This document shows, one piece after another, positions 11,480 to 38,164 of a stretch of 41,090 nt of DNA. Every line of letters begins with the position of its first letter. The stretch's first letter is position 1. Where the stretch lies: NCBI GenBank assembly GCA_945883795.1, contig CAMCYC010000017.1, positions 1 to 41,090 on the forward strand, read 5' to 3'. The notes under the pieces are model-generated. The model saw nothing but the letters and a program-made list of their open reading frames with translations, was not told the DNA's origin and did not search any database. A program made the translations under genes and the position numbers. The stretch comes from Sulfurimonas crateris. GTDB taxonomy: Bacteria; Campylobacterota; Campylobacteria; Campylobacterales; Sulfurimonadaceae.

Positions 11480-11491
11480 GGGGGAGGTAAT

Positions 11492-15812: not shown

Positions 15813-15827
15813 GAAAAGGATTATAAT

Positions 15828-16520
15828 ATGTTTCATTGGTTAGAAAAACATCCGTTCTTTTTTGCGGTAGGTGTATTTTTAGTGATTGCTTTTGCTGGTT
15901 TAATTACAGTGCTTCCAAACTTTGCACAATCATCTCGTCCTTTAATAGGTGCTGCTCCTTATTCTACTTTAGAATTAGCAGGTCGTCATCTTTATATTAA
16001 AAATAGTTGTAATGCATGCCATTCACAACTTATTCGTCCATTTAAATCAGAAACTGACCGTTATGGTCACTACTCTTTAAGTGGTGAGTATGCGTATGAC
16101 CGACCATTTCTTTGGGGTTCAAAAAGAACTGGTCCAGATTTAATGAGAGTTGGTAACTATAGAACTACTGACTGGCATGAAAATCACATGAAAGCTCCAG
16201 CTGATGTTGTTCCAGGTTCTATTATGCCTGCGTATACTTGGATGTTTACAAAATTAGCTGATATTGATACTGCGTATGCAGAACAAGTAACAGTTGCTAA
16301 TATATTTTCTGTACCATACAATAAACCAGTACCTATGAGAGATGGGTCAACTAAAATTGTTAAAATGGGCAGTAGTGTTGAAGATGCAAATGCTATGGCA
16401 TTAGCTGAAGCAAAAGTAATTGCAGCTGATATGAAAGATCAAGATGTAAAAGATGCTATAGCTGCAGGGAAAATTCCTGAAATTGTAGCTCTTATTGCAT
16501 ATATGAATAGTCTTAAGTAG
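15828..16520 (+). CDS. ccoO: cbb3-type oxidase subunit II, monohaem cytochrome c
   Basis: 230 residues with one N-terminal membrane helix (about 10-30) and a periplasmic cytochrome c domain. The haem-binding site is CNACH (Cys61, Cys64, His65), followed by SQLIRPFKSETDRYGHYS and RTGPDLMRVG, typical of CcoO. It passes electrons from CcoP to CcoN. AAGGA precedes the ATG, 15 bases after ccoN. Confidence 0.97.
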   Translation: MFHWLEKHPFFFAVGVFLVIAFAGLITVLPNFAQSSRPLIGAAPYSTLELAGRHLYIKNSCNACHSQLIRPFKSETDRYGHYSLSGEYAYDRPFLWGSKRTGPDLMRVGNYRTTDWHENHMKAPADVVPGSIMPAYTWMFTKLADIDTAYAEQVTVANIFSVPYNKPVPMRDGSTKIVKMGSSVEDANAMALAEAKVIAADMKDQDVKDAIAAGKIPEIVALIAYMNSLK

Positions 16521-16529
16521 GGGTTTTAG

Positions 16530-16733
16530 GTGAGTATTGCTGAACTTCAAGCGTATGGTTATGTTGCAGCTATGGTTGTATTGGTGTTTGTTACTTATGG
16601 GTATGCATACCATTTATATACAAAGAAAAAAGATGCAAATGGCAAAGATTATGAAGATTACAGCAATATGGCATTAAGGGATGATTTAACTGATACGCCT
16701 GTATCGGCTAGGTCTGAGCATAAAGAGAAATAG
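16530..16733 (+). CDS. ccoQ: cbb3-type oxidase small subunit CcoQ
   Basis: 67 residues: a short N-terminus, one membrane helix (about 9-27, VAAMVVLVFVTYGYAYHLY) and a charged cytoplasmic tail. It begins with GTG nine bases after ccoO, preceded by AGGGG. Length, single helix and place between ccoO and ccoP identify it as CcoQ, which stabilises the complex. Confidence 0.85.
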   Translation: MSIAELQAYGYVAAMVVLVFVTYGYAYHLYTKKKDANGKDYEDYSNMALRDDLTDTPVSARSEHKEK

Positions 16734-16742
16734 GAGAGATAT

Positions 16743-17672
16743 ATGAATAAGCTTTATCTTTGGGGAATTATTATTACAGCTGCAATGCTGGGGTTTACAT
16801 ACTATACAATTGTTCTGACAAAGGGCGGTATGAATGGTGATATCGTAAACATGCTTGCACTTGCAGGTGCTGTTGCACTTGTAATTATTACAGTTTTTGT
16901 TGTAATTAAGTATGTTCGTCAAATGCAAACTGATACAGCAAGCGGTGAGCTAGCTGATGAGACTTGGGATGGTATTGGTGAGTATAAAAACGAATTGCCT
17001 ATGGGTTGGGCAGTTATGTTTCTTGCGCTCATGGTTTGGGCTATGTGGTATTATATTATAGGGTATCCAGTAAATGCATATTCACAAATTGGTGAATATA
17101 ATGAAGATACAGCTGCTCATAATGCGAAGTTTCAAGAAAAGTATTTATCAATTACTGGTGATAAACTTGTAGAAATGGGTGAATCTGTATTCTTAGCAGA
17201 TTGTAAAGCATGTCACGGTATTGCTGCTGATGGTATTGAAGGCAGAGCTGCAAATCTTAACAAAAGGCTTGAAGCTAAAACTGTTAAATATGTTATAGAA
17301 AATGGTTCAAATAATCATTTACTTGGTTCTGAAATGCCAATGCCAGACCGTAATGGTTTATTTAATACAAAAACTGGTGCACTTCTTACTGATGCTGAAA
17401 TAGATGCGGTTGCCTCTTATGTAGCTGATGGTATGAGTGGTGCTGGTGCTAATGTTTTTGCTAGCACTTGTGCTTCGTGTCATGGAGAAGACGGTAAAGG
17501 TATGGAAGGCGTTGCTCCGAATATAGTAGAATTTACTCCAACACTTGTTACTAATGTTCTAAACCATGGTAAAAAAGGTGCGATAGGTGGTATGCCATCG
17601 TTTAATGGATTAAATGCTAAACAAAAAGAAGCAGTTGGTGCATATATCACTAGCTTAAGCTCAACTAAATAA
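16743..17672 (+). CDS. ccoP: cbb3-type oxidase subunit III, dihaem cytochrome c
   Basis: 309 residues: two N-terminal membrane helices (about 5-25 and 33-55), a third near 80-98 (MGWAVMFLALMVWAMWYYI), then two cytochrome c domains with CKACH (154-158) and CASCH (243-247). It receives electrons from soluble cytochrome c or bc1. The first helix pair is an extension relative to short CcoP forms. The C-terminal domain shares CHGEDGKGM, APN.VE and GKKG.IG.MP.F with subunit II of the A-type oxidase upstream. AGGAGAG precedes the ATG. Confidence 0.96.
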   Translation: MNKLYLWGIIITAAMLGFTYYTIVLTKGGMNGDIVNMLALAGAVALVIITVFVVIKYVRQMQTDTASGELADETWDGIGEYKNELPMGWAVMFLALMVWAMWYYIIGYPVNAYSQIGEYNEDTAAHNAKFQEKYLSITGDKLVEMGESVFLADCKACHGIAADGIEGRAANLNKRLEAKTVKYVIENGSNNHLLGSEMPMPDRNGLFNTKTGALLTDAEIDAVASYVADGMSGAGANVFASTCASCHGEDGKGMEGVAPNIVEFTPTLVTNVLNHGKKGAIGGMPSFNGLNAKQKEAVGAYITSLSSTK

Positions 17673-22311: not shown

Positions 22312-23541
22312 ATGTTTGATATAAATAAGTATGAATTCGACCAAAAACATAATTGCCTTGAAATAGGTGGTGAAGCAATGGTATTTCATTGCCATCATTA
22401 CATGATGAATCTACAAAGAACTATTTTAGATGCAGATTATATAGAGAGCAAACTTTTTTTAATTGGGAGTGCTGCCGATTCTATTTATTATCAACTTACT
22501 AATCTTTGTCAAGGTCTAAGTATTGATGAATCTAAAGAGATAGCGCAAGATATTTATAAAACATTTGGATACGGACTTATAGACATTAGCAGTATGGATG
22601 AAAATGGAATAGAGTTACAAACCACAAAATCATTTTTTTCAAAAACTTGGTCTCTTAAATATGGTAACAGTAAAAAACCTGTTGACTATTATACAACAGG
22701 ATTTTTAGCAGCAGCGTATGCAGTTATCTACAATAAAAACTTAAAAAATATCTTTGCCCAACAAAACGCATGTATGGCATGTGGAGATGAAAAAAATACT
22801 TTTCTGATACGAGAGGGAGAATGTAATTTTGCAACATATCCTAAAAAACATGCAACTGTTTTTAAAGAAGTTCCAAAAGTTTCACTTAATTGGGAATATG
22901 AAGAGGTTATAACCAATGCATTTTTTGGTGCACATGCTACTATGGTTGGAGATAAGGATGGCTTGATTCCTGCTTTTCGTGTTTATCTTGTACGAACGCA
23001 GAGCGATTATGTAAATCGTTTACAGTTTGAATTTGCTAAAGCCATGATGGAAGTGGCTGGTGAATACGGTGAAACGCTTGCGGGTGAGCTTTTAATGGAA
23101 GCAGGGCATGCATGTGGATTTTTTACTTATGGTGGCATCATGAATTCACCTGAATGGGAAGGTGCTGTAAAACCATACTTAAAGAACAAAGAAGATTGGA
23201 TTAGAGGGCTTGCTGCAGTTGTAAATACTATGGGATGGGGATACCACACAGCAATTGAATTAAGTGAATCAAGAGCTGTATTTAGAAATTATAACGATTT
23301 TGAAGATTTGAGTTATATGAGAATGTACGGTACAAATACTCGTCCTATCCACTGGGCTAACAGTGGTGGATTTAAAGGGCTTATGCAGTTAGTATATAAT
23401 ACAGATATCGTTAATGGTGAAAACATTGAGACGGAAGAGGGTTTTAGAGCGATGCGAAGATCTAAAATTGGATATAAAACAAAAATGACAAAAGGTATCT
23501 CTTGTGGAGATGATTATTTGGAAGTAGAAATTTATTTATAA
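22312..23541 (+). CDS. Double V4R-like (4-vinyl-reductase fold) protein
   Basis: 409 residues, soluble. The N-terminal half begins with VFHCHHYMMNLQ (His26, Cys27, His28, His29) and ends with NACMACGDEKNTF (about 153-164), the cysteine pattern seen at the end of V4R domains. The second half repeats the plan with EYGETLAGELLMEAGHACGF and ends GISCGDDYLEVEIYL. V4R domains occur in BchJ-type proteins and in sensors that bind small ligands, possibly tetrapyrroles. The HCHH cluster could bind metal or haem. It is immediately followed by a histidine kinase and a bacteriophytochrome. Ligand and role are unknown; an intracellular sensor is my best guess. Confidence 0.6.
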   Translation: MFDINKYEFDQKHNCLEIGGEAMVFHCHHYMMNLQRTILDADYIESKLFLIGSAADSIYYQLTNLCQGLSIDESKEIAQDIYKTFGYGLIDISSMDENGIELQTTKSFFSKTWSLKYGNSKKPVDYYTTGFLAAAYAVIYNKNLKNIFAQQNACMACGDEKNTFLIREGECNFATYPKKHATVFKEVPKVSLNWEYEEVITNAFFGAHATMVGDKDGLIPAFRVYLVRTQSDYVNRLQFEFAKAMMEVAGEYGETLAGELLMEAGHACGFFTYGGIMNSPEWEGAVKPYLKNKEDWIRGLAAVVNTMGWGYHTAIELSESRAVFRNYNDFEDLSYMRMYGTNTRPIHWANSGGFKGLMQLVYNTDIVNGENIETEEGFRAMRRSKIGYKTKMTKGISCGDDYLEVEIYL

Positions 23542-23553
23542 TCGGAATGTGAA

Positions 23554-25320
23554 ATGAATAGAGAAGAATCACTAGCATCGGAAGTAGAAGTTCTACGACT
23601 TCAATCATTAAAACAAACAAAAATATACAAACGATTATATGAAATTGGAAAAAGCTTAAATGAAACGATGCAGATTCCTGAGATTTATAATTTGACAGTA
23701 GAATTTGCAACCAGTGAATTAAACTTTGAAAAATGTATCATTTTTGAACATGATGATTCAAACGGTTGGTTCAAAGTGGTTCAATCTGCAGGCTATCATA
23801 AACCTTATGAACAGCAAATATTACGAATTATCAATCTCCTCCTCTCTGGTGAGATTATCGAATATTTACGGGTTAATGGGGAACCTCTTATATATACACA
23901 AGAAAATCCAAAAGAGCAAGTAGCAAAATTAGTCAAATCACTCTTTTTAAATGAAGCCTATTTTGAGCTTTTTGGAGGCGATGTAGAGATACCTCATGGC
24001 GTTATTGTAGTAGGCAATGGAGTTGATAGTACAAACTCTTTTTCTAAAATTGGAATAGATGAGATGGTTATGCTCGCTTTGGGCAATTTTACAACAAGAC
24101 TCTCAAGTGCAGTCAGCAATATCCTTTTTTATCAAGCATGGAATAAAGAGCGAAAAAATTTACAACAATCCGTCTATGACCAAACGCTACTTAATATAAG
24201 ACTTGCTAAAGAGCAAAAATTTATTTCCACTATTTTAAATAATACAAGTGCAATCATTGCCATTATAGATTCTAAAGGGGTCATGACACGGATTAACTCT
24301 TATGGTGAAAAATTTACAGGATACACTCAAAAAGAGATTTCATCTGAACCTTATTTTTGGGGAAAATTTGTTCCAAAAGAGATTCAAGATAAAGTTTTTA
24401 GTATTGTTGAAAATGCAAAGCTAGGAAATATCGTCTCAAGGAATCAGAATTTCTGGATATCCAAAGAGGGTGAAGCTAGAATTTTTGATTGGGCAAATGT
24501 TTTGATTAAAAATGAAAATGATGAAATGGAGTATATTGTAACGGTTGGAATGGATGTAACGAACACTATAGAACAACAAAAAAAATTAGAAAATGCATTA
24601 GCAATAGCAGAAAATGCAGCAAGAGTTAAAGGTGAATTTTTGGCAAATATGAGTCATGAAATCCGAACTCCCATGAATGGAATACTTGGTTTTATTCAGC
24701 TTTTTGAACGCACTACTTTAGATGCAAAACAAAAAAAGTTCGTTGATATAATGCATACAAGTGCAAAAACTCTTATGGGGATTATTAACGATATTTTAGA
24801 TGTTTCAAAATTTGAGAGTGGAAACTTTGAATTAGATATTACAGAAGTAAATCCATTTATTGAATTCAAAAAAGTAGTTATGATTTTTATGACAAAAATC
24901 AAAGACAAAGAGATTTTATTTGATGTTGAGATAGATGAAAACATCTCTCCATGTGTTAAATTTGACTTATTACGAATGCAACAAATTATCTCTAATCTTC
25001 TTAGTAATGCCATTAAATTTACAGCTGAACATGGAAAAATTGTATTTTCAATAAAGATGCTTGATAAAAAAGAAGATTCGATACACTTAAAAATTAGTAT
25101 AAAAGATAGTGGAATAGGGATTCCCAAAGAGAAACAACAACATATTTTTGAAGCTTTTACCCAAGCAGCAGTTTCTACCACACGAATGTACGGAGGGACT
25201 GGTCTTGGCTTAACTATAAGTTCTCGCTTAGTATCTTTAATGGGTGGTCAATTACAAGTCGAGAGTGAAGAAAATGTTGGTAGTGATTTCTTTTTTGATA
25301 TTGTTGTCCAGACATGTTGA
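23554..25320 (+). CDS. Soluble GAF-PAS sensor histidine kinase
   Basis: 588 residues without membrane helices. Order: short coiled coil, GAF domain (about 30-195), PAS domain (about 222-345), HisKA with phospho-acceptor His368 in MSHEIRTPMNGI, and a HATPase with the N box (QQIISNLLSNAIKFT), the G1 box (KDSGIGIPKEKQQHIFEAF) and the GTGLGLTIS box. It ends there, with no receiver domain. The partner response regulator is not in the window. It lies 12 bases after the V4R gene and upstream of the phytochrome, so it may relay the signal of one of these neighbours. The GAF lacks phytochrome residues. Confidence 0.9.
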   Translation: MNREESLASEVEVLRLQSLKQTKIYKRLYEIGKSLNETMQIPEIYNLTVEFATSELNFEKCIIFEHDDSNGWFKVVQSAGYHKPYEQQILRIINLLLSGEIIEYLRVNGEPLIYTQENPKEQVAKLVKSLFLNEAYFELFGGDVEIPHGVIVVGNGVDSTNSFSKIGIDEMVMLALGNFTTRLSSAVSNILFYQAWNKERKNLQQSVYDQTLLNIRLAKEQKFISTILNNTSAIIAIIDSKGVMTRINSYGEKFTGYTQKEISSEPYFWGKFVPKEIQDKVFSIVENAKLGNIVSRNQNFWISKEGEARIFDWANVLIKNENDEMEYIVTVGMDVTNTIEQQKKLENALAIAENAARVKGEFLANMSHEIRTPMNGILGFIQLFERTTLDAKQKKFVDIMHTSAKTLMGIINDILDVSKFESGNFELDITEVNPFIEFKKVVMIFMTKIKDKEILFDVEIDENISPCVKFDLLRMQQIISNLLSNAIKFTAEHGKIVFSIKMLDKKEDSIHLKISIKDSGIGIPKEKQQHIFEAFTQAAVSTTRMYGGTGLGLTISSRLVSLMGGQLQVESEENVGSDFFFDIVVQTC

Positions 25321-25383
25321 GATAACATTGATAATTTTAATTACAAAATGCGTATCTACTCTTTTCACAAAGAAGAGAATCTT

Positions 25384-27873
25384 ATGGTCGTAAATATACA
25401 AGACACAAGCTTTTGTGATGCCGAGTCAATTCATAATTTATCACGCATTCAACGGAGTGGTTATCTACTTATTCTAAGCTATGAAAATTTAGAAATTTTA
25501 CAAGTCAGCGATAATATATCTAGCTTAACAAATATCCATTATCAAGAGGCATTAAATCAAACATTAGACTATCTCTTTGATAAAGATTTTTATACAAAGA
25601 TTTACAATGCAATATCAATTTTGAATAAAAATTCAAAAAAAGAAAAAACTTTTGTCGAAACTTATAAAAAAAGTAGATTTTTTTGTGCTATACATCTCAG
25701 CGAAAAATATGTAATTTTAGAGATAAGTGATATTACAGACCAAAATACAACTGAAGATTTTAGTGTTGAAGAAAATCTAGATAAGATAATACTAAGATGC
25801 CAAAAGACAGAGACATTTGATTCATTATGCAATGAAATTATTTCCTCTATTCAAAAGCTAAGTGGTTATGACCGTGTTTTGATGTATAAATTTGATGAAG
25901 ATGGGAGCGGAACTGTCTTAGCTGGACAAAGCACTATTTTAAAAGAAAATTTTCTAAATCATCGTTTTCCAGCTTCTGATATTCCCGCACAAGCTAGAGC
26001 TTTATATATTAAAAATAAATTTAGAATTATAGAAGATGTGAATGAAATAGATGCCTGTATTATCCCTGAGATAAATAGCATAACTCAAAGTGCTATAGAT
26101 ATGAGCTTTTGTCATTTTCGAGCTGTTTCACCAATACATATTAAATATTTAAAAAATATGGGCGTAGAATCATCTATGTCAATATCAATAGTGATTGATT
26201 CAAAGTTGTGGGGAATGATAGCCTGTCATAACTATGAGCCAATAAAAATACCACATACATTACATGCTATATATTATTTATTAAGTAGTATATTTGCTTC
26301 ATTTATAGAACAAAAAGAACTTATCAATAATTATCACATCTCTTTTAAACTCAAGTTGGAGCGGGAGTTGTTTATAAATACTTTAGCTCAAAAAAGTGAA
26401 ACTCATTTTATAAATGCTATTTTTGAGGATGCAACAAAACTTTTAGATATGTTCTCTTGCGAGATTGTTGCGTTAAAACATGGGAATGATTATAAATCCA
26501 CTGATAATAATATTGGTATGAATGAGATAGAAGAACTTTTAAAAATAGCTATACCTGAGATGAAAGATAATCTTTTTAATCGCTCTAACTTTGGTGTTTT
26601 GTATGGAAAAATAAACTCAAAAATTGGTGGTTTACTTGTTATTAAGCTTTCAAATATCAAAGATACTTATCTATTTTTTATAAGGGTTGAGCAAATATAT
26701 ACAGTTCAATGGGCAGGTGAGCCAAATAAAAGTGTGCGTTATGAAGATGGAAAAACAGTGGTTAGTCCAAGAGCTTCATTTGAAAGTTGGAAAGAGACCG
26801 TAATCGGAACTTCATCCCCTTTCATAAAACAAGAGATTGAATGTGCAGAAACATTGGCACAAAATCTTTCTCAACTCTATCTCTATTTTGAAATCTCGAA
26901 TAACTCACAAGAGCTCAAAGCAAAACAAATTATTCAAGAAAATATCATTCTTCAAAATGCTATCGAGAAAGAGATTTTATCGCAAAGAGATAGATTACTC
27001 AATAGCGTTGGGGAAGGGGTCTATGGAATAGATTTAAATATGAACTGTTTTTTTATCAATCCTGCTGCACTTTTAATGCTGGGATTAGAGGAAAAAGATG
27101 TTTTAGGAAAAGTTATACATCATATCATTCATCATCATAAAGATTATGGACATGAGTATTCGCCAAGTGAATACATAATACATACTATTATAAAAACTCA
27201 AAATAAACATGAGCAACATGATTGGCTTGTAAAATCTAACAGTGAAAAATTTCCAGTGAAAATGATTTTTACCCCCTTGTATGAGAACTCTCAAATTTCT
27301 GGCGTTGTTGTTGCTTTTACAGACATGTCTGCTGAGTATAACTCTAAGCAAGAGCTGCAAAAACTGAACAAAAAACTAGAACTCCTAGCAATGACAGACC
27401 CATTAACGCAAGTATATAATCAAAGATATTTCAAGAAATACGGAATGAAGCAATTTGATATTTCTAAAAAAGAGGAAAAGCCATGGAGTATCATTTTAAT
27501 AGAGATAGACAATTTTAAACTTATTAAAAAAACATATGGAAATGAAGTGAGCGATTTGGTTCTCATGATGGTGACAAAAGCACTCAAGTTAAACATCTCA
27601 GATGAAAATATTTTAGCTCGTATTGGCTGTGAAGAGTTTGCAATTATACTCCCGCAACTCAATATAAAACAGAGTGTTTCACTTGCTAGAGGTATAGTTG
27701 AAGAGATTCATAAAAATTCTGTGCCAGTTCATAACACAAAGCTATTTTGTACTGTTAGTATCAGCGTTGTTCAAAATGATACAATTTTTTCTAGATTTAT
27801 TGAAATGATGAAAACATTGGAGTTAAAGATGTTGTTTGCAAAAGAGTCTGGAGGAAACTGCATAAAAGCATAA
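25384..27873 (+). CDS. Bacteriophytochrome (PAS-GAF-PHY-PAS) with degenerate GGDEF domain
   Basis: About 829 residues. From the ATG at 25384 (AGAAGAGA upstream; another ATG at 25348 lacks a good site) the order is PAS with Cys11 in CDAESIHNLSRIQRSGYLL, aligning with the biliverdin-attaching Cys of BphPs; GAF with PASDIPAQARALY, AVSPIHIKYLKNMGVESSM and LWGMIACHN; PHY with the tongue motifs WAGEP and SPRASFESWKE; PAS (about 535-650); and a GGDEF fold. The residues matching Asp207, His260 and His290 of the Deinococcus protein are present. The GGDEF signature reads GCEEF and GNEVSD replaces the usual GHxxGD, so cyclase activity is doubtful. It would sense red/far-red light. No haem oxygenase gene is in the window. 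Confidence 0.9.
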   Translation: MVVNIQDTSFCDAESIHNLSRIQRSGYLLILSYENLEILQVSDNISSLTNIHYQEALNQTLDYLFDKDFYTKIYNAISILNKNSKKEKTFVETYKKSRFFCAIHLSEKYVILEISDITDQNTTEDFSVEENLDKIILRCQKTETFDSLCNEIISSIQKLSGYDRVLMYKFDEDGSGTVLAGQSTILKENFLNHRFPASDIPAQARALYIKNKFRIIEDVNEIDACIIPEINSITQSAIDMSFCHFRAVSPIHIKYLKNMGVESSMSISIVIDSKLWGMIACHNYEPIKIPHTLHAIYYLLSSIFASFIEQKELINNYHISFKLKLERELFINTLAQKSETHFINAIFEDATKLLDMFSCEIVALKHGNDYKSTDNNIGMNEIEELLKIAIPEMKDNLFNRSNFGVLYGKINSKIGGLLVIKLSNIKDTYLFFIRVEQIYTVQWAGEPNKSVRYEDGKTVVSPRASFESWKETVIGTSSPFIKQEIECAETLAQNLSQLYLYFEISNNSQELKAKQIIQENIILQNAIEKEILSQRDRLLNSVGEGVYGIDLNMNCFFINPAALLMLGLEEKDVLGKVIHHIIHHHKDYGHEYSPSEYIIHTIIKTQNKHEQHDWLVKSNSEKFPVKMIFTPLYENSQISGVVVAFTDMSAEYNSKQELQKLNKKLELLAMTDPLTQVYNQRYFKKYGMKQFDISKKEEKPWSIILIEIDNFKLIKKTYGNEVSDLVLMMVTKALKLNISDENILARIGCEEFAIILPQLNIKQSVSLARGIVEEIHKNSVPVHNTKLFCTVSISVVQNDTIFSRFIEMMKTLELKMLFAKESGGNCIKA

Positions 27874-27942: not shown

Positions 27943-30900
27943 ATGATAAAAGCAAATATTGAAAAAAATAAAAGTAAAAATTTAGTGATTGTAGGACTTG
28001 GTGCAAGTGCTGGTGGGCTTGAAGCACTGAGACTTTTCCTTTCAAATCTTCCTCCTGAACATAACAATATTGCCTATGTAGTGGTGCAACATTTAAGTCC
28101 AACGCATAAAAGCATGATGCGAGAGTTGCTTGCAAGAGAGACAACTTTTGATGTTTTAGAGATACAAAGTGGATTGCTTCCAAAAGCCAATACTGTGTAT
28201 ATCACTCCTCCAGACCGTGATGTTGTCCTTAAAAATGGACTTCTCATGCTTGAACAGCCATTAGCAAGATGGATTGGACCAAAACCTTCTGTTGATAAAT
28301 TTTTTATTTCATTATCTAAAGAAAAACTTGAACTTGCCGTTGGTGTCATACTCTCAGGTACAGGCTCAGATGGTTCACAAGGTGTAAGAGCAATTCGTGC
28401 CGAAGGTGGAATAGCCATAGCTCAAAAACCTGAACAAGCCAAATATGATGGCATGCCAGCATCGGCTATACAAACAAAAAGCGTTGATTATATACTCCCC
28501 GCAGAAGATATAGCCAAAGAGATTATACATCTTTTACGCTATCCGAGTTCTCTAAGAGTCGAACAAGCAGAAGATGATGAATTCAATGTTATTTTTGAAA
28601 TAATTAGAAATAGATTTAATATAGATTTCAGTCAATACAAAAAAAGTACCATCACACGAAGAATTGAACGCCGCATGGCCGCTATAAAAGCTACAACCAT
28701 GACAAATTACATCACTTATCTTAAAGATAATATTGAAGAGGTGGAATATTTATATAAAGATATGCTCATAGGTGTTACCTCTTTTTTTAGAGATACAGAT
28801 GCTTTTGATGCGTTAAGAACACAGCTTGAATTCTATGTTAAAGAGCATAAAGAGGATGACCAATTTAGAGTTTGGGTATCCGCATGTTCTACTGGCGAAG
28901 AGGCTTATACTATCGCTATATTACTTGATGAAATTATGGGTTCTCACACTAGCAGACATGTGAAAATATTTGCAACCGACATTGATGAAGAAGCTATACA
29001 AAAAGCAAGAGCTGGAGTATTTCCAGAGCTTACGGTTTCAGAAGTCTCGCCTGAGCGATTACAAAGATATTTCATACAAAAAGGAAATGAGTTTGTAGTC
29101 AAGCCACAACTTAAAGAAAGGGTTATTTTCTCAAGACACGACATAACAATTGACCCTCCTTTTGTAAAAATTGATTTGGTTACATGTAGAAATATGCTAA
29201 TTTACTTTGAAACAGCCTTGCAAAAAAAGATTTTTACCACTTTTGCTTACTCTTTAAAACAGCATGGTATTTTATTTTTAGGAAAATCGGAATCAGTTGG
29301 TATGAATACTGATTTATACTCAACACTCGATGCAAAAGCAAAACTATTTCAAGCAAGAACAACCGTAGAATCAAGAAAGCTTTTGTATCCGCAGATGTTA
29401 AATGCAGGAAAATATATAAAACCTTCCATTGCAGTCAAACAAAAAAGAAAGACTAGCACCCTCGAAGATGCTATAAAAAACACCCTATTTGAATATTATG
29501 AAGCAAAATGCGTAGTTATAGACAATGATTTCAATATACACTACATCAAAGGAAATATGAATGATATGCTTAAATTTCCAAGTGGAGAAGTGCATAACAA
29601 TATTTTAAAAATGCTGCCTGAAAAAGTATCGCTAGAAGTACGCTCACTCGTATATAAAGCAAATAAAAATGAAGCACTCATAACTTTTCCAGCAGTTGCG
29701 CAATGTGCCCTTGAAATAGAAACAATTTCTGTAAAATTAAGTCCACTAGAGGGTAAATCAGGACATTATCTATACTTTTTAATCTGTTTTGATACTACGC
29801 AAAATACAGTTGAGAAACTACCGATTAAGATAGTTGAAAACGAAAATTCATACATTAGACAATTAGAACAAGAGCTACTTTCTACAAGGGAACATTTACA
29901 AACGGTTGTTGAAGAGTTGGAAACTTCTAACGAAGAGTTGCAATCCTCAAACGAAGAACTTCAAGCTTCAAACGAAGAACTTCAAGCGTCAAATGAGGAA
30001 CTCGAAACAACCAATGAAGAGCTACAATCTACAAACGAAGAGTTGCAAACAGCCTATTCTGAGATAAGAGCATTGTATGAAAAACAAAATTTACAGAAGA
30101 ATTATCTTGAAGGAAAGTCCAATGAACTCGGTGTTTTAAAAGAGGAACTCGATTTACAGTACGCCTATATCAAAGAAGTTTTGGACACTGAAAAAAATAT
30201 AGTAGTTGTAACAAATGGTAAAGAGATAATCTCGGTTAATGATGCGTTTTTCAAACTCTTTTCGCAATATTCCTCACTAGAAGAATTTAAAGTTGAACAT
30301 CAATGCGTTTGTGATTTCTTTGAAAAAAACAATGATGATGGGTATATTTATGAGAAAAAGAACGGCTTGAATTGGCTGAAGTTAATCATAAATAGTAATA
30401 GAAATGATTTAAAAGTAGATATAAAAAAAGATGAAGTTACATACACTTATCATATAATGGCAAGCATGTTAAAAGGCGGAGAACAGAGTTTTGTCGTCAC
30501 TTTAACGGACATCTCCCAAATTATAGCCTCTACGCTTAAATTGCAAACGGCTCTCTCTGATGAAATTCAAAGTAAAGTTAGCAGTTCGAATATCATTCAC
30601 CAATTCAATCATATTTTTGGTCAAGATTTATTCACTCTTCATATGACTGACGAGATACGAAAACCACTCAACAAAATATATCAAAACTATAAATCTATAA
30701 TAGAAATATCGAAGTTCAGTGATGCCGATACGATAAAATATATGGGAGAGTTTTCAATAGAGAAAAATGAAATTTTAAGTGCTATCACCTCTTTAAAACA
30801 TTTTTCTGGAGTCTTCAAAGACAGCACAGTTAATCTTTACGAATCATTTGAGCGAGTCGCTTTGTTAATAACCAACTCTAGGGCGAATGAACTTAATGTA

Positions 30901-31263
30901 GAATTATTAGGAATACAAACTCTTGAAATAGTTGATAAAAATGGACAAATATATCAACTTATCATGTTGTTAATGATGATATATGTACGAACAGTTACCA
31001 TGTTAAGCCTAAAGAATGTCACTTTAAAAATCGAGTTTACAAGTAAACCAGGGATGATTCTTATTAAAATTAATAATGTAGGTGATGAATCACTGTGTAA
31101 GCAATTATTAAAATTAGAAGCATCAAAAGAGATACTAGGCAAAGAATCTCAAAAAATCAGTGATACATTCACTATCTTTAGTTCAATGTTGCAAGTGGCT
31201 TATAACGCCAAATTTATTTTGGGAGCTGATTGTTGTGAGATTAACTTGCCAACAAATGTTTAA
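27943..31263 (+). CDS. CheB-CheR-coiled coil-PAS fusion ending in a pseudo-histidine-kinase
   Basis: 1106 residues. A CheB methylesterase domain (Ser22 in GASAGG, His50 in VVQHLSPTH, Asp143 in SGTGSDG) is followed by CheR (STITRRIERRM, the SAM site ACSTGEEAYT, DPPFVKIDLVTCRNMLIYF). Then come a heptad coiled coil (about 640-725), a PAS domain (about 740-865) and a C-terminal region. There, MTDEIRKPLNKI matches the H-box MSHEIRTPLNxI, but the phospho-acceptor His is Asp903. The N box is altered (IYQLIMLLMMIYVRTV) and no DxGxG follows. The CheB and CheR residues look intact. No receiver or chemoreceptor is linked. Likely a cytoplasmic adaptation or signalling hub. Confidence 0.9.
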   Translation: MIKANIEKNKSKNLVIVGLGASAGGLEALRLFLSNLPPEHNNIAYVVVQHLSPTHKSMMRELLARETTFDVLEIQSGLLPKANTVYITPPDRDVVLKNGLLMLEQPLARWIGPKPSVDKFFISLSKEKLELAVGVILSGTGSDGSQGVRAIRAEGGIAIAQKPEQAKYDGMPASAIQTKSVDYILPAEDIAKEIIHLLRYPSSLRVEQAEDDEFNVIFEIIRNRFNIDFSQYKKSTITRRIERRMAAIKATTMTNYITYLKDNIEEVEYLYKDMLIGVTSFFRDTDAFDALRTQLEFYVKEHKEDDQFRVWVSACSTGEEAYTIAILLDEIMGSHTSRHVKIFATDIDEEAIQKARAGVFPELTVSEVSPERLQRYFIQKGNEFVVKPQLKERVIFSRHDITIDPPFVKIDLVTCRNMLIYFETALQKKIFTTFAYSLKQHGILFLGKSESVGMNTDLYSTLDAKAKLFQARTTVESRKLLYPQMLNAGKYIKPSIAVKQKRKTSTLEDAIKNTLFEYYEAKCVVIDNDFNIHYIKGNMNDMLKFPSGEVHNNILKMLPEKVSLEVRSLVYKANKNEALITFPAVAQCALEIETISVKLSPLEGKSGHYLYFLICFDTTQNTVEKLPIKIVENENSYIRQLEQELLSTREHLQTVVEELETSNEELQSSNEELQASNEELQASNEELETTNEELQSTNEELQTAYSEIRALYEKQNLQKNYLEGKSNELGVLKEELDLQYAYIKEVLDTEKNIVVVTNGKEIISVNDAFFKLFSQYSSLEEFKVEHQCVCDFFEKNNDDGYIYEKKNGLNWLKLIINSNRNDLKVDIKKDEVTYTYHIMASMLKGGEQSFVVTLTDISQIIASTLKLQTALSDEIQSKVSSSNIIHQFNHIFGQDLFTLHMTDEIRKPLNKIYQNYKSIIEISKFSDADTIKYMGEFSIEKNEILSAITSLKHFSGVFKDSTVNLYESFERVALLITNSRANELNVELLGIQTLEIVDKNGQIYQLIMLLMMIYVRTVTMLSLKNVTLKIEFTSKPGMILIKINNVGDESLCKQLLKLEASKEILGKESQKISDTFTIFSSMLQVAYNAKFILGADCCEINLPTNV
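29911..30057 (+). repeat. Seven in-frame 21-bp repeats coding EEL(Q/E)xxN heptads
   Basis: Seven consecutive 21-base units encode EELETSN, EELQSSN, EELQASN, EELQASN, EELETTN, EELQSTN and EELQTAY. The third and fourth differ by only a few bases. They form the coiled-coil linker after CheR. Such repeats can gain or lose units, which would change the linker by two helical turns at a time. Confidence 0.9.
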
Positions 31264-31266
31264 CAC

Positions 31267-33270
31267 ATGAAGAAGGAAATAAAAGATTTTTTTAACTCTT
31301 GGATGCTTTCGCTTCCTTTGCCTGTCATAATCGTAGATTATGACTTTAGGATTTTGCTCTCCAACGACAAAGCAACTATGCTATTAGATTTTAATTTCAA
31401 AAAACCACAATATTTGGAAAACTATTTTCATAGGTCATTGATAACACATTTTTTAGAATTCAAAAATGCACTCAAATCTGTCGAATATGGCGAGATAGAT
31501 ATAAAGCTCGATCATCTTGGACATACAAAAATGATTGGTCGCTATTTTGATGACGACTTGGGTTATTATATTATTTTCATGATACCTCTCGTGTATAAAG
31601 ATAATTATTTAAAATTAGAAGAAAGATTCTCCACAATAATGCACCACATGAATGATTCTGTTTTAATTACCGACAAACAGCAAAGGATAATTGAAGCAAA
31701 TCCAGCATTTACTAAAATAACGGGGTATGAATTTTTAGAAGTTCGAGGTAGATTTCCAACGATTTTAAGTAGTGGCAAACAAAATGAAGACTATTATAAA
31801 AAAATGTATGAGGAAATGAGTATAAAAGGGTTTTATAATGGCGAATTGATGGACCGTAAAAAAAATGGTGAATCTTTTTATGCGAGTGCCAGCATCATTC
31901 CACTTCTTGATGAAGGTAGTGAAATATATGAATATATAGGGATTTTAAAAGATATCACTGAGCTTAAATCACTAAGAAAGAAAGTTGATAGTGATAAACA
32001 TAAAGACCCTCTCACAGGCGTACTAAGCAGAGAATCGTTTTTAAATGTGCTTAGTATAAAGTGTGAAATGGCAAACGAAAATAACACTTTGGCTATTTTA
32101 TTTATAGATTTAAATAAATTTAAGCAGGTTAACGATACTTTTGGGCATCAATATGGAGATTTCGTCCTCTCAACAGCGGCTTCAAGGATGAAAAAAGTTT
32201 TGCGTAATAATGATTTGATTGGCAGGTATGGCGGAGATGAATTTCTCATTTTATTAGAAAGAGTCAATGAAGAAAGTGCTCATAAAATTGCAGTCAATAT
32301 TAATGAGGTATTGTCACACCCTTATGTTGTAGATGAGCAAGTTATAGATTTTGTCTCAGGAAGTATAGGGATAGCATTCGCTCCTACAGATAGTCGAAAT
32401 GTAACGCAGTTAATCGAAAAAGCTGATGCGGCAATGTATTTTGCAAAAAAAGGCTTAAAAAAAAGCTATATATTGATGGCGAATGCTCTCAATAATGAAC
32501 CAAAAAATAATAAAAGTATAAAAACAGAGTTAATGCATGCAATTGAAAATGATGAGTTTTATATAAGAATTCAACCTATCGTTAAAATTTCAGATGCCTC
32601 TATTGTTGGAGGAGAAGTTCTTGCAAGATGGTTGAATTTATATTTTGACGAAGTCATGCCAAGCACTTTTATTCCATTAATAGAAAAATTGGATATTTCA
32701 AAAAAGTTTGATAGAAAAATTTTATCAAAAACAATCGAAGTCTTAAAAACCCAAAAGCTTCCAGAAGATTTTTTTATCAATGTAAACTTTTCTGCCGAAC
32801 AATTTGGAGATAGTAATTTTGTAACAATATTAGAAAATCTAGCTACAGAGGATTCTTGGCTATTAAAACATTTGGTGATTGAAATTACTGAAAGTACTAT
32901 GATGGCAGATATTGAGCAAACATCTCAATATCTGCATGAAATTAAGAAAATTGGATTCAAATTGGCTATTGATGATTTTGGAACAGGTTTCTCATCACTA
33001 TCTTACCTCAAACATTTTTCAATTGATTATCTGAAAATTGATATTAGTTTTATAGAGTATATTGAAGAAAATCAAAAAGATAGAGATATAGTTCAAGCAA
33101 TAACCATGCTAGCAAAAGGGATAGGTGCAAAAACAATTATTGAAGGTGTAGAGAGAGAAAGCCAATACGAAATACTCAAAGATATAGGCATTGACTACGC
33201 ACAAGGCTTTTTATTTTATAGACCAATGTTGAGTCAATCCTTTTTTACTACCGTCTGGTCTATAAATTGA
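31267..33270 (+). CDS. PAS-PAS-GGDEF-EAL dual-domain c-di-GMP protein
   Basis: 667 residues, soluble. An N-terminal PAS-like segment (about 10-105) and a clear PAS with PAC (about 118-238, ITGYEFLEVRG, GILKDITELK) are followed by GGDEF with intact RYGGDEF (322-326) and INDTFGHQYGD-type residues (here VNDTFGHQYGD). The EAL domain has E450-V-L in GGEVLARW, IEITESTMM, DDFGTGFSSLSYLK, LKIDISF and EGVE, so both diguanylate cyclase and phosphodiesterase sites look usable. It starts three bases after the CheB-CheR stop, so it is in the same operon. It is the one protein here with full c-di-GMP chemistry. Confidence 0.93.
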   Translation: MKKEIKDFFNSWMLSLPLPVIIVDYDFRILLSNDKATMLLDFNFKKPQYLENYFHRSLITHFLEFKNALKSVEYGEIDIKLDHLGHTKMIGRYFDDDLGYYIIFMIPLVYKDNYLKLEERFSTIMHHMNDSVLITDKQQRIIEANPAFTKITGYEFLEVRGRFPTILSSGKQNEDYYKKMYEEMSIKGFYNGELMDRKKNGESFYASASIIPLLDEGSEIYEYIGILKDITELKSLRKKVDSDKHKDPLTGVLSRESFLNVLSIKCEMANENNTLAILFIDLNKFKQVNDTFGHQYGDFVLSTAASRMKKVLRNNDLIGRYGGDEFLILLERVNEESAHKIAVNINEVLSHPYVVDEQVIDFVSGSIGIAFAPTDSRNVTQLIEKADAAMYFAKKGLKKSYILMANALNNEPKNNKSIKTELMHAIENDEFYIRIQPIVKISDASIVGGEVLARWLNLYFDEVMPSTFIPLIEKLDISKKFDRKILSKTIEVLKTQKLPEDFFINVNFSAEQFGDSNFVTILENLATEDSWLLKHLVIEITESTMMADIEQTSQYLHEIKKIGFKLAIDDFGTGFSSLSYLKHFSIDYLKIDISFIEYIEENQKDRDIVQAITMLAKGIGAKTIIEGVERESQYEILKDIGIDYAQGFLFYRPMLSQSFFTTVWSIN

Positions 33271-33293: not shown

Positions 33294-34016
33294 ATGATAC
33301 ATAATAAATTAATTCAGCTAGCTCGTTATAGTTATTGGGACAAAGAAATTGGTGCTTTAATAGTGGATGCGAAACATCTAAAATTAACTGTATCTCAAAG
33401 AAAACTCCTTGGATTGTTGGTAGAAAACTTAAATCGTCCTGTTCATGGCACTCTAATATTTGATGAAGTAAATCATTCGCTAGATAAAGAATTTAATGAA
33501 AAAAGTGTTCGTAATCTCATAAGTAGTTTGAGAAAGTTTGCACCAATGATTAAGATTGTCAATATTTATGGTGGGTATTATATGCTTAGAAAAGATAGCA
33601 TGTATCCTGATTTAGAATTTAAAGATTATTTATATGAAGTTTTGGACCAATCGAAAAATGCCATAGTGATAACAAACCCAAACGAATATGACAATCCTAT
33701 TATTTATGTCAACAGTGCTTTTAGCGAATTATTTGAATACACATTTGAAGATGTGATGGGTAAAAATTGCCGTTTTTTACATGATGATGATATTGAGCAA
33801 TTAGCTATTGATGAAATAAGAAAAGCAATTCAAGAACGAGAATCTATAACAGTAAACCTTCGTAATTATACACAAAGCGGTAAGATACTTTATAACGAGG
33901 TAACCATAAGCCCCATATTTGACAAAAAAAATGGTAAATTAAAATACTTCTTAGGTGTTCATAAAGATGTTACATTTATCAAAACCTTAATGAGACAGTT
34001 AAGCTCTTTACATTAA
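33294..34016 (+). CDS. Winged-helix DNA-binding protein fused to a LOV blue-light domain
   Basis: 240 residues. Residues about 28-98 form an OmpR-type winged helix (LTVSQRKLLGLLVENLNRPV, EKSVRNLISSLRKF, IYGGYYML). Residues about 115-228 are a LOV domain: NPIIYVNSAF, then GKNCRFLHDD with Cys159 at the flavin-adduct position, LRNY (Asn191), YNEVTISP (Asn201) and YFLGVHKDVT. The two glutamines usual in LOV (NCRFLQ and GVQ.DVT) are His163 and His223 here. It most likely binds FMN and controls transcription in response to blue light or redox state. It follows the GGDEF-EAL gene by 23 bases. The ribosome site is weak. Confidence 0.88.
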   Translation: MIHNKLIQLARYSYWDKEIGALIVDAKHLKLTVSQRKLLGLLVENLNRPVHGTLIFDEVNHSLDKEFNEKSVRNLISSLRKFAPMIKIVNIYGGYYMLRKDSMYPDLEFKDYLYEVLDQSKNAIVITNPNEYDNPIIYVNSAFSELFEYTFEDVMGKNCRFLHDDDIEQLAIDEIRKAIQERESITVNLRNYTQSGKILYNEVTISPIFDKKNGKLKYFLGVHKDVTFIKTLMRQLSSLH

Positions 34017-34122: not shown

Positions 34123-34157
34123 TTTATAAACTTAATTAGAAAAGGATGAAATATATT

Positions 34158-34952
34158 ATGAATACTTTTAGTATTAACCATATCTCTTCAAAATCAATTC
34201 TCAGTGCGTTTGATTTTGCACTTAATCCTATTGCTATCACAGATTCGGATTTGAAAAGAGGTGTGAAGATTTTGTATGTAAATCCCGCTTTTTTAAAGCA
34301 GACAGGCTACAGCAAAGAAGAGCTTTTGGGTGAAAGTCCTAAGATACTTCAAGGTCCTAAAAGTAATCAAGAGATGCTTTTAAAACTTAAAGAAACTCTC
34401 TTGCGTGATGAAGATTTTCACGGACAAACAACAAATTATAAAAAAGATAAAACTCCTTATATTGTTCAGTGGAGCATCTCCCCTTTAAAAAATGTATACA
34501 ATAAGACTGTCGCATTTATCTCCATTCAAAAAATCTTAACTAAAGAAATAGACGCTATTAACAACAACATACTTTTTGAAAGTATCATTCAGCAGTCGCC
34601 ACAAGCAATACTTGTTTCTGACCTTGAAGGAAAGATTATTTATACAAACGAAGCTTTTGTTAACAGTACGGGCTATTCGATAAATGAACTTGTTGGACAA
34701 CATACAAGAATGCTTAAATCAGGAAAACAGAATCAAGAGTTTTATGAAAAGATGTGGTTTGAACTTGTACATCATGAAAGTTTTGAAGGAATCTTTATTA
34801 GTAAAAAGAAAAATGGTTCTCTTTTTTATAATAAACAAAGTATTCGATTAGTAAAAGATATAGATGGCATGCCAAAATATTATATGTCAATTTCTCATGA
34901 TATTACAAATCTTAAAAATGCTTTAGCAACGAAAAAAAAGCAATCAAGTTGA
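34158..34952 (+). CDS. Tandem PAS protein, first domain LOV-like without the cysteine
   Basis: 264 residues made only of two PAS/PAC units (about 15-125 and 133-255). The first reads GESPKILQGPKSNQEML, which follows the LOV pattern G-x-NCRFLQGPxT but has Pro at the cysteine position. The second reads GQHTRMLKSGKQNQEFY and ISHDITNLK. There is no output domain, so it should act through partners. ATG 34158 is preferred over ATG 34146 because AAAGGA (34141-34146) runs into the earlier start and suits the later one. It is the last gene of the sensory block and ends before a strong hairpin. Confidence 0.8.
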   Translation: MNTFSINHISSKSILSAFDFALNPIAITDSDLKRGVKILYVNPAFLKQTGYSKEELLGESPKILQGPKSNQEMLLKLKETLLRDEDFHGQTTNYKKDKTPYIVQWSISPLKNVYNKTVAFISIQKILTKEIDAINNNILFESIIQQSPQAILVSDLEGKIIYTNEAFVNSTGYSINELVGQHTRMLKSGKQNQEFYEKMWFELVHHESFEGIFISKKKNGSLFYNKQSIRLVKDIDGMPKYYMSISHDITNLKNALATKKKQSS

Positions 34953-34985: not shown

Positions 34986-35030
34986 TTAGGAATTAAAAGA
35001 TAATTTTAATTCCTAAAAGTTTTTTATTTT
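34986..35030. terminator. Bidirectional terminator between sensory block and ED operon
   Basis: TTAGGAATTAAAA (34986-34998) and TTTTAATTCCTAA (35004-35016) form a perfect 13-bp stem with loop GATAA, followed by AAGTTTTTTATTTTT on the plus strand. The convergent eda gene ends at 35024, just beyond it, so one hairpin probably serves both sides. Confidence 0.85.
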
Positions 35031-35656
35031 TGATTTAATAATTCTACTGCTTCTCGTGTGAGTTGTGTTATCTCATCAAATTTTTTTGCTTCGATAAGCT
35101 CTTGTGGAACTATCCAGCTTCCACCGATACATGCCACATTTGGGAGTTCCAAAAAGCTCCTTGCATTCTCTTTATTAATCCCACCAGTTGGGCAAAAAAT
35201 CACATCTTTAAAAGGTCCGCCAAACGCTTTGAGTGCGCCAACTCCTCCTACAACTGTTGCAGGAAAAAGCTTAAACGCATCAAAACCATATTCAAGTCCA
35301 CTCATAATTTCACTTGCAGTTGCAACTCCTGGCAAAAGAGGCATAAAAGAATTTTTTGAAAATTCAGCCAAACTTTTTGTAAGTCCTGGAGAGATTGCAA
35401 ATTTTGCACCAGCATTTTCTACAGCTTTAAAAGTCTCAATATTTATAACAGTTCCCGCACCAGTGAGTGCATGAGGAAACTCTTTTGCCACAGCTTCAAT
35501 CGCTTCAATCGCAGCAGGTGTTCGTAAAGTTATTTCAAAAATATTAACACCACCTCGCAGAAGTGCTTCAGCCAAATGGAGCATTTCATTTGCACTTTTT
35601 ACACTAATGACAGGGATAATTTTGGACACTAACATCACTTCTCTAGCAGTTAACAT
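35024..35656 (-). CDS. eda: 2-keto-3-deoxy-6-phosphogluconate aldolase
   Basis: 210 residues, last gene of the operon. Splits KDPG into pyruvate and glyceraldehyde-3-phosphate, the final step of the Entner-Doudoroff route. Typical sites are IIPVISV, the Glu in FEITLRTPAAIEAI, GAGTVIN, the Schiff-base lysine in FKLFPA and CPTGGI. The start overlaps the edd end by seven bases, so translation is coupled. Confidence 0.95.
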   Translation of the reverse strand: MLTAREVMLVSKIIPVISVKSANEMLHLAEALLRGGVNIFEITLRTPAAIEAIEAVAKEFPHALTGAGTVINIETFKAVENAGAKFAISPGLTKSLAEFSKNSFMPLLPGVATASEIMSGLEYGFDAFKLFPATVVGGVGALKAFGGPFKDVIFCPTGGINKENARSFLELPNVACIGGSWIVPQELIEAKKFDEITQLTREAVELLNQK

Positions 35657-37479
35657 GATTCCTCTCCTACAGCTTCAAATATTGTTGCACCCTCTTCGGC
35701 AGTGTTTACAACTTTACGCATCATACCAAAAAGCTCTCTTCCCACACCATACATATTTTCGCTCAAATTAGGCGTGTTTATCTCCCGTTTTAGAAGTTCA
35801 TCTTCGCTTACATGTAAAATCAAACTTTCAGCATCACAATCAAGTTCTATCATGTCACCATCAATAATTTTGCCTATCACACCACCATCTTTTGCTTCTG
35901 GGCAAAGATGAATTGCAGAGGCAACTTTTCCTGATGCACCTGACATTCTTCCATCTGTAATAATTGCTACTTTATAGCCATTGTCTTGTAATGCTCCCAT
36001 GGACGGCATCAAACCATGCAACTCAGGCATACCGTTTGATTTTGGACCTTGATATGGTAAAACTGCTATAAAGTCAGAATTTAATTCACCTTTACTAAAA
36101 GCCTCTTTGAGTGCTTCTTGGGAATAAAATACTTTTGCAGGAGCTTTTATAATTCTATTGCTCTCTTTGAGTGCAGAAGTTTTGATGATTGAGCGACCAA
36201 TATTTCCATCTAAAACTTTGAGTCCACCTTGTATGTCAAACGGTTTTTTGACACTGCTAATAACTGAAGTATCAGCAGAATTCTCAATTGCTTTTTTATA
36301 TATAAGTTTGCCATTTTCTAAAAATGGTTCTTTGAGATAATTGCTCAAACCAAATCCCATAATAGTATTGACATCTTCATGTAAAAGTCCACTATCCAAA
36401 AGCTCTTTTATCACAACCGCCATCCCACCAGCACTATGAAAATGATTGACATCTGCACTTCCATTTGGATACATGCGACACAGTAATGGTACAACGCTTG
36501 AGAGTGTATTAAAATCATTCCATGTAAGAGTGATTCCACAAGCACGAGCCATAGCGATGAGGTGGATTGTGTGGTTTGTAGAACCTCCTGTTGCCAAAAG
36601 TCCCACGATTGCATTGACAAAACTTTTTTCATCTATCATTTTACCAATTGGCATGTAATTTTCACCCAAAGGGGAAAGCTCTAAAAGTTTAAGCGAAATT
36701 GCCTCTGTGAGGGCATCACGAAGTGGGGTGTTTGCATTTACAAACGAGCCACCTGCCATGTGAAGTCCCATAATTTCCATAAGCATCTGATTGGAATTTG
36801 CTGTGCCATAAAAGGTGCAAGTTCCAGAAGAGTGATAAGATGCACTCTCCGCTTCTAAAAGATTTTCACGAGTTGCTTTACCTTGAGCATATTCTTGACG
36901 AATTTTTGCTTTTTGGCTGTTACTAATTCCTGATTCCATAGGACCAGCAGGTGCAAAAACAATAGGCAAATGTCCAAATTTCATAGCACCTATAAACATA
37001 CCAGGGACAATTTTATCACATACACCAAGCATAATTGCACCGTCAAACATATTATGAGAAAGTGCAATAGCGGTACTTTGAGCAATGTTATCTCGACTAA
37101 AAAGACTCATCTCCATCCCTTTTTGGGATTGTGTTACTCCATCACACATAGCAGCTACACCACCAGCGACTTGTGCATCTGCACCTGCTAAATTTAAAGC
37201 TCTTTTAATAAGTGGTGGAAAATTTACAAAAGGTTGGTGTGCTGAGAGCATGTCGTTATAAGCTGAAACTATAGCAATATTTTCACTTTGCATTTTTATA
37301 AGATGTGCTTTTTCATGGGCTGAACAAGGTGCTATTGCATGGGCGAGATTGCTACAGCTAAGTGAGCCTCTTTGGGGTTTGTTTTTGTGTGCTTCTTCTA
37401 TGCGATTGAGATAGATTGCTCTTGTTTTTTGAGAACGCTCAATAATGTTGTGTGTCACTTCTGTGAGTTTGTTATGCAT
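35650..37479 (-). CDS. edd: 6-phosphogluconate dehydratase
   Basis: 609 residues, normal for Edd. Converts 6-phosphogluconate to KDPG with a [4Fe-4S] cluster. The cluster cysteines are in AAMCDGVTQSQKGMEMS, GVCDKIVPGM and GTCTFYGTANSN; DGRMSGASGKVASAIH is the conserved C-terminal segment. Distinguished from dihydroxy-acid dehydratase by the N-terminal HNKLTEVT.NIIERS pattern and by lying between pgl and eda. The iron-sulfur centre makes it oxygen-sensitive. It overlaps both neighbours by seven to eight bases. Confidence 0.96.
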   Translation of the reverse strand: MHNKLTEVTHNIIERSQKTRAIYLNRIEEAHKNKPQRGSLSCSNLAHAIAPCSAHEKAHLIKMQSENIAIVSAYNDMLSAHQPFVNFPPLIKRALNLAGADAQVAGGVAAMCDGVTQSQKGMEMSLFSRDNIAQSTAIALSHNMFDGAIMLGVCDKIVPGMFIGAMKFGHLPIVFAPAGPMESGISNSQKAKIRQEYAQGKATRENLLEAESASYHSSGTCTFYGTANSNQMLMEIMGLHMAGGSFVNANTPLRDALTEAISLKLLELSPLGENYMPIGKMIDEKSFVNAIVGLLATGGSTNHTIHLIAMARACGITLTWNDFNTLSSVVPLLCRMYPNGSADVNHFHSAGGMAVVIKELLDSGLLHEDVNTIMGFGLSNYLKEPFLENGKLIYKKAIENSADTSVISSVKKPFDIQGGLKVLDGNIGRSIIKTSALKESNRIIKAPAKVFYSQEALKEAFSKGELNSDFIAVLPYQGPKSNGMPELHGLMPSMGALQDNGYKVAIITDGRMSGASGKVASAIHLCPEAKDGGVIGKIIDGDMIELDCDAESLILHVSEDELLKREINTPNLSENMYGVGRELFGMMRKVVNTAEEGATIFEAVGEESC

Positions 37480-38164
37480 AATATACCTCTAATATTGGCT
37501 TTTCTTGTTGCATCATCGAGATGATTGGCATTGAAAACATATCATGATTTTGACACGCTTTGTCAAAAACTTCTTTTTTATTTTTTCCCTCTATGTGCAA
37601 AATAAGTGTTTTTGTTGTGAGTAAAAACTTTCGAGAGAGTGTCATGCGTTCATACGGTTCAACCGTTGCGGTACTAGCACAGCATCGTTCTGTTGTGTCA
37701 AATGCAGTTTTTAACTCTGTTGCATGTGGAAAAAAGGAGGCAGTGTGTGCATCATCTCCCATTCCAAGAATAACCACATCAAAAGTTTCAATAGCTTTAA
37801 GCCTATTTTGGGTGATTTTTACACCATCACTTGCTCTTATGGCAGCATTTTTAAGCGAGATAAATTGTGCCATTTTTGCATGGTTTTGCAATAAATATTG
37901 TGTCAGTAAGTTTTCATTACTTTTTATATCATAAGTTTCAACCCACCGTTCATCTACCAAAGTAATTATGACTTTGTTCCATGGAATGTCTACATTTGAG
38001 AGTTTTTCAAACATTTTTTTTGGGGTATTGCCACCTGAAAAAGCCAAATAAGCTTTCCCTTTTATATGGATGGCATTGAGAATTTCTGCAATAATTCTCT
38101 CACAAAGAGCTTCACTTAAAAGTTCATTATTTTCAAAACTGTTTATTTGATATTTATTTTTCAT
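37472..38164 (-). CDS. pgl: 6-phosphogluconolactonase
   Basis: About 230 residues of the DevB/SOL type, which hydrolyses 6-phosphogluconolactone. Seen: AFSGGNTPKKMFEKL, ITLVDERWV, ILGMGDDAHTASFFP (with the catalytic-region His) and RMTLSRKFLL. I chose the ATG at 38164; in-frame TTG 38188 and ATG 38179 lie inside the zwf end. It overlaps zwf by 11 bases and edd by 8. Confidence 0.93.
   Translation of the reverse strand: MKNKYQINSFENNELLSEALCERIIAEILNAIHIKGKAYLAFSGGNTPKKMFEKLSNVDIPWNKVIITLVDERWVETYDIKSNENLLTQYLLQNHAKMAQFISLKNAAIRASDGVKITQNRLKAIETFDVVILGMGDDAHTASFFPHATELKTAFDTTERCCASTATVEPYERMTLSRKFLLTTKTLILHIEGKNKKEVFDKACQNHDMFSMPIISMMQQEKPILEVYYA

Follow-up and report, generated by a model that had tools for sequence, protein, structure and literature searches.

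A bacteriophytochrome with a degenerate GGDEF domain, encoded in a gene cluster with a winged-helix LOV protein in Sulfurimonas crateris

The gene cluster

The stretch of DNA analysed here (the window, 41,090 nucleotides) is the entire contig C17 of Sulfurimonas crateris, the assembly of which comprises 2.41 Mb in 126 contigs and is 99.85% complete. Seven genes follow one another on one strand, separated by 3-129 bp, and from position 22312 they probably form an operon, as judged from the intergenic gaps only. Scans for promoters and terminators gave no clear excess over shuffled sequences. The genes, together with the features of the phytochrome, are the following:

22312 to 23541, forward strand: V4R-like protein, at the head of the probable operon (Pfam V4R 4.5e-07, 30.3 bits, just under the cut-off of 31)
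23554 to 25320, forward strand: sensor histidine kinase, PAS-HisKA-HATPase (Pfam), ending 63 bp before the phytochrome start
25384 to 27873, forward strand: bacteriophytochrome, PAS-GAF-PHY-PAS-(degenerate)GGDEF (Pfam, residue alignment, fold match, ribosome-binding site)
25414 to 25416, forward strand: Cys23, the biliverdin-attachment cysteine, aligned with those of IsPadC, FiDCB and Agp2
25969 to 25986, forward strand: PASDIP motif containing D211 (alignment)
26767 to 26781, forward strand: PRASF of the PHY tongue, with R475 (alignment)
27388 to 27858, forward strand: degenerate GGDEF domain (Pfam range 681-837 of the protein)
27943 to 31263, forward strand: CheB-CheR fusion with a C-terminal region (Pfam CheB 4e-52, CheR 6e-53), 69 bp downstream of the phytochrome
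31267 to 33270, forward strand: PAS-GGDEF-EAL protein with an intact GGDEF motif (Pfam, key GGDEF residues)
33294 to 34016, forward strand: winged-helix LOV protein (NCBIfam YtvA_fam 4.2e-39, below the full-length cut-off of the model)
34146 to 34952, forward strand: PAS-PAS protein without the LOV cysteine (Pfam, translation)

The open frame of the phytochrome extends from 25348 to 27873 on the forward strand and corresponds to 841 amino acids. A Shine-Dalgarno-like element, AAGAAGAG, is located just 5' of the ATG at 25384 and none comparable precedes 25348, so that 25384 (829 amino acids) is the better start; residue numbers given here refer to the 841-residue frame.

Photosensory module and chromophore pocket

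Every Pfam match of the protein exceeded its curated cut-off: PAS_2 (1.1e-10), GAF (4.5e-10) and PHY (2.8e-25) in the photosensory module, PAS (1.2e-14) and GGDEF (4.7e-27) in the C-terminal part. The AlphaFold2 model had a mean pLDDT of 75, being mostly above 85 in the photosensory module and poor in the C-terminal PAS region. Its superposition on solved photosensory modules gave 2.7-3.5 Å with a target-normalised TM of about 0.9 (2.8 Å and 0.87 for DrBphP, 4q0j), and the fold was found to match those of IsPadC, DrBphP, PsBphP and Agp1. The full bacteriophytochrome claimed at 25384-27873 by the first-pass annotation is real, and the assignment lies far beyond chance. That annotation was right about the domains and motifs of the photosensor; it left unmentioned the PAS and GGDEF domains at the C-terminus with the degeneracy of GGDEF, as well as a second phytochrome and the LOV gene.

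For the pocket, the window protein was aligned with a further 43 phytochromes, including the solved IsPadC, FiDCB and Agp2. The consensus residue was present in the window protein at each of the 20 positions checked across chromophore pocket, DIP motif and tongue, including C23, D211, Y220, R226, R258, H264, Y267, S276/S278, H294, W455 and the PRxSF element at 474-478. By motif, we take C23, D211, Y220, R226, R258 and H264 to be the equivalents of C24, D207, Y216, R222, R254 and H260 of DrBphP, and likewise Y267, S276/S278 and H294 to be those of Y263, S272/S274 and H290. The N-terminal cysteine, PASDIP and the pocket and tongue motifs quoted at the first reading of the sequence were all found and align with the three solved proteins, no cysteine or pocket residue being misaligned. 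Judged from the aligned residues, the biliverdin pocket of the window phytochrome is intact.

Haem oxygenase and the second phytochrome

The window itself contains no haem oxygenase. The profile search of the whole assembly showed that the sole PF01126 haem oxygenase of the genome is encoded on contig C16, with a score of 27-29 bits against a cut-off of 23 and a match spanning profile positions 2-58 only. The protein is divergent, yet it retains His15 and Gly112/Gly116, three residues that seven BphO-like proteins have in common. Its gene overlaps the following one, which lies on the same strand and encodes a second phytochrome (BphP2) with the domain order PAS-GAF-PHY-HisKA-HATPase-REC and with the pocket and tongue residues kept at 20 of 20 positions, so that a predicted source of biliverdin stands directly in front of a phytochrome of the same genome.

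Among the 228 genomes of the family, PHY was found in nine and PF01126 in eight, all of them belonging to the nine (8/9 with PHY vs 0/219 without; Fisher p 6e-14, genomes being counted without regard to relatedness). The ninth PHY-bearing genome, without PF01126, is a 74% complete assembly. In other families PF01126 was present in all five PHY-bearing genomes tested. The haem oxygenase looked for by the first-pass annotation thus exists, is of the BphO type and adjoins the second phytochrome; of the computational findings named there as contrary to a working sensor, namely misplaced chromophore residues and a genome devoid of haem oxygenase, neither appeared.

Distribution and relationships in the phylum

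The environmental members of the Campylobacterota have mostly been studied as sulfur and hydrogen oxidisers, and phytochromes are outside this usual picture. The search across the phylum proposed at first reading detected PHY in 4 of 397 sampled genomes, and the corresponding counts were 7 of 399 for the order and, as given above, 9 of 228 for the family; PHY is rare in the phylum. It had also been stated that few or no phytochromes were described in this group, and no description of one from Campylobacterota was found in the literature searched, which covers few subscription papers. A paper on a vent metagenome mentions a phytochrome, but it is assigned to the Thiohalomonadales and is without GAF or PHY (PMC9174799).

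In the tree the phytochromes of the phylum split into several separate lineages, mostly of the bphO-BphP-HD-GYP kind. The commonest lineage (clade support 100) has bphO followed by BphP-HD-GYP-GGDEF (loci L043, L044, L045, L059, L060, L062 and L065; genomes G327, G483, G044, G556, G563, G567 and G517). These operons of related bacteria have a phytochrome photosensor, with bphO upstream, but they constitute a separate clade with an HD-GYP output, whereas the window protein is located in another one. The HD-GYP output of these loci would imply that c-di-GMP breakdown is controlled by red light.

The clade of the window protein includes BphP2, a short phytochrome of genome G556, a phytochrome-PAS protein of G517 (G517_C6) and G044_C1, which belongs to another family. 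The window protein and G044_C1 group with a support of 88 and have G517_C6 as sister (support 100). A simple duplication of the two phytochromes within the genome is not favoured, because the tree places the window protein beside the G044 orthologue (88) rather than beside BphP2. The gene of the phytochrome-PAS protein of G517 (L066:3021-5039, reverse strand) is split by a TAA inside the PHY tongue, which indicates either a pseudogene or an assembly error. A scan of the genome contigs with the window protein as the lone query returned distant relatives only. A recent origin by transfer from alphaproteobacteria, Deinococcus or cyanobacteria is unsupported, as identity to the available references is only about 27-31% and the clade consists purely of members of the same phylum; this concerns recent transfer only, support being low (17-70) at the deep branches.

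Outside the window the complete order PAS-GAF-PHY-PAS-GGDEF was found in G044_C1 only, which shows 40% identity across 97% of its extent. This orthologue has lost the cysteine, Asp207, two pocket arginines and the tongue tryptophan, while an intact bphO-BphP-HD-GYP is carried elsewhere in the G044 genome. Since it keeps the architecture without the cysteine, Asp207 and tongue tryptophan, selection on the architecture need not be for light. The same losses could suggest that the window protein, too, now responds to something other than light, for instance redox or oxygen, its pocket being a relic, and phytochromes turned redox sensors are known, at least as Vuillet et al. (2007) are quoted in PMC9174799. 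This is quite unlikely for the window protein, which has kept all 20 residues despite a photosensor identity of only about 33-44% to its closest relatives, and whose genome has retained a haem oxygenase.

The GGDEF domain and the closest known systems

The best match in the PDB to the window protein, by both sequence and fold, was IsPadC (5llw), the phytochrome-activated diguanylate cyclase of Idiomarina. Both proteins contain PAS-GAF-PHY with all pocket residues, a coiled coil and a C-terminal GGDEF, the photosensors being 29% identical. They differ in that IsPadC has no intervening PAS and shows intact DxD, N and GGEEF elements, whereas in the window protein a PAS at 546-660 separates PHY from GGDEF, in place of a direct coiled-coil linker, the first metal-binding Asp is replaced by Glu, the guanine-binding Asn by Lys, and GGEEF by GCEEF. 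The RxxD inhibitory site is absent from this GGDEF domain. The loci retrieved from the phylum contain 45 GGDEF domains, and Lys together with GCEEF was seen in just two of them, those of the window protein and of G044_C1. Two other close relatives are without any GGDEF, and the window clade is therefore independent of this domain.

The resemblance to IsPadC over photosensor and GGDEF, together with the strong Pfam match of the latter, could be explained by a light-activated cyclase of the PadC type, in which light would switch on c-di-GMP synthesis. It is an unlikely explanation: PadCs were gathered with a GGDEF/GGEEF motif and with a coiled coil as the direct linker (PMC9587094), both of which are replaced in the window protein, and the Glu, Lys and GCEEF active site recurs, as to Lys and GCEEF, only in the G044 orthologue. 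The window phytochrome is probably not a diguanylate cyclase, because the active site is degenerate and Lys and GCEEF are common to an orthologue of another family; this loss of activity we infer from the residues. Another nucleotide signal could also be produced, as by the Hypr GGDEF enzymes, which make cGAMP (PMC6456294), since the change of the base-binding Asn could shift the specificity; one PadC yields an unidentified product which is not c-di-GMP (PMC9587094). A changed specificity of this kind is very improbable here, as the metal ligand and the GGEEF motif are altered as well and in the orthologue Gly and Ser occupy the positions of the metal Asp and Lys332.

RpBphP1 of Rhodopseudomonas palustris is also a phytochrome with a C-terminal PAS; under far-red light it binds the repressor RpPpsR2 and so controls this regulator by light-dependent contact (PMC6899989). 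The comparison concerns the mode of action only; RpBphP1 ends in a HOS two-helix domain and the window protein in GGDEF. For the GGDEF part a precedent is found in PdeB, the inactive GGDEF of which is a protein-interaction switch that binds HubP (PMC9061725).

The winged-helix LOV protein

The protein encoded at 33294-34016 shares with the LOV domains of the YtvA family and of phototropin the common LOV fold and the flavin Cys, and differs from them in its N-terminal winged helix, in the replacement of the signalling Gln by His and in a score below the full-length YtvA cut-off. The motif GKNCRFLH contains the flavin-adduct Cys, and both pocket Asn residues are kept. At the position of the signalling Gln, His or Tyr was found in several relatives of the same genus as well. 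The best PDB matches were phototropin LOV2 domains, and the model gave a LOV fold with a middling pLDDT of 68.

Full-length homologues were present in 32 of the 228 family genomes, compared with nine for the phytochromes, and the winged-helix LOV protein thus does not need a phytochrome. In all five family genomes holding both, the LOV gene lies within about 8 kb of a phytochrome gene, and in G044, from another family, it is next to the phytochrome gene. The homologues of CheB-CheR adjoin winged-helix LOV genes in G407, G289, G517 and G563. In G407 and G289, both without PHY, the LOV gene has CheB-CheR and GGDEF-EAL as neighbours, and these three therefore seem to represent an older unit, which the phytochromes joined in some genomes.

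In two copies located beside a phytochrome the flavin Cys is replaced, by Ser in G556 (L059:8230-8955, forward strand) and by Pro in G483 (L044:12052-12840, reverse strand). These copies may have lost the blue-light function and retained the linkage.

The host and its contig

The host was described at first reading as an apparent non-phototrophic chemolithotroph, and this holds: the genome encodes SoxB, far above the cut-off, and a NiFe hydrogenase, and the profile search for a type-II photosynthetic reaction-centre protein found none in it. Gene content, like purA, agrees with Campylobacterota. The genes around the phytochrome had been said to look native to the phylum, and the phytochrome gene looks native as well, its GC and GC3 being like those of its neighbours and of the contig.

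The assembly being split into 126 contigs, of which the window is a complete one, a misbinned contaminant, with the gene not being the organism's own, has to be weighed. It is hardly credible. The purA of the window has as its best solved match 3r7t, which we take to be the C. jejuni enzyme; GC and GC3 are fairly uniform along the contig; another contig of the genome encodes a related phytochrome; and relatives were found in two further genera of the family and in another family. Contamination was rejected on the basis of purA, GC and the second phytochrome.

Proposed mode of action

The reading preferred here, with a probability of about 0.6, is that the window protein is a red/far-red biliverdin receptor which would signal by contact with products of its cluster. 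The phytochrome would bind biliverdin through C23, supplied by the BphO-type haem oxygenase encoded beside BphP2 on the other contig, and would toggle between red- and far-red-absorbing forms. Light would refold the PHY tongue, and a movement of the helical spine would carry over to the PAS and GGDEF domains at the C-terminus; the output could be a contact with the winged-helix LOV regulator, the PAS-GGDEF-EAL protein and CheB-CheR. Red and blue light would in this way act on transcription and on c-di-GMP or taxis control in a chemolithotroph. Protein-protein contact is suggested as the most likely output in view of the degenerate GGDEF active site. The His in place of the signalling Gln of the LOV protein, the lack of a haem oxygenase in the window, the residue losses of the G044 orthologue and the wider occurrence of the winged-helix LOV protein count against this reading. 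The interpretation offered at first reading is supported in part: a working sensor is predicted, and light as a proxy for depth or oxygen is a conjecture.

Two predicted red/far-red sensors, the predicted enzyme for their pigment and a cluster with a predicted DNA-binding blue-light sensor suggest that some bacteria of the phylum read light. It is tentatively proposed, as a possible rather than a probable extension, that chemolithotrophic Campylobacterota have a two-colour system, in which a phytochrome with a dead GGDEF would contact the adjacent winged-helix LOV regulator, so that red/far-red and blue light would act jointly on transcription and c-di-GMP without photosynthesis. Bacteriophytochromes are a known kind of protein; what sets this one apart is the phylum in which it occurs, its output of PAS and pseudo-GGDEF and its being linked to a winged-helix LOV regulator. 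Two intact phytochromes, a haem oxygenase that occurs in the family only alongside phytochromes and a conserved LOV neighbourhood make a light response in this group a concrete and testable claim. The degenerate GGDEF, with the same odd residues in two families, offers a natural case in which a phytochrome may signal by contact and not by catalysis, and the G044 orthologue without chromophore residues a natural comparison for the role of the architecture without light.

Two further gene sets were observed in the window. The regions 8741-13557 and 14334-17672 encode two kinds of oxidase, namely a haem-copper set of the CtaD/CoxB type that includes a haem o synthase-like gene, and a cbb3 oxidase; neighbouring one another, they may suit an oxygen supply that fluctuates. 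The cluster is immediately followed, on the reverse strand (35024-39617), by a full Entner-Doudoroff set, zwf-pgl-edd-eda, which is notable for a presumed chemolithotroph.
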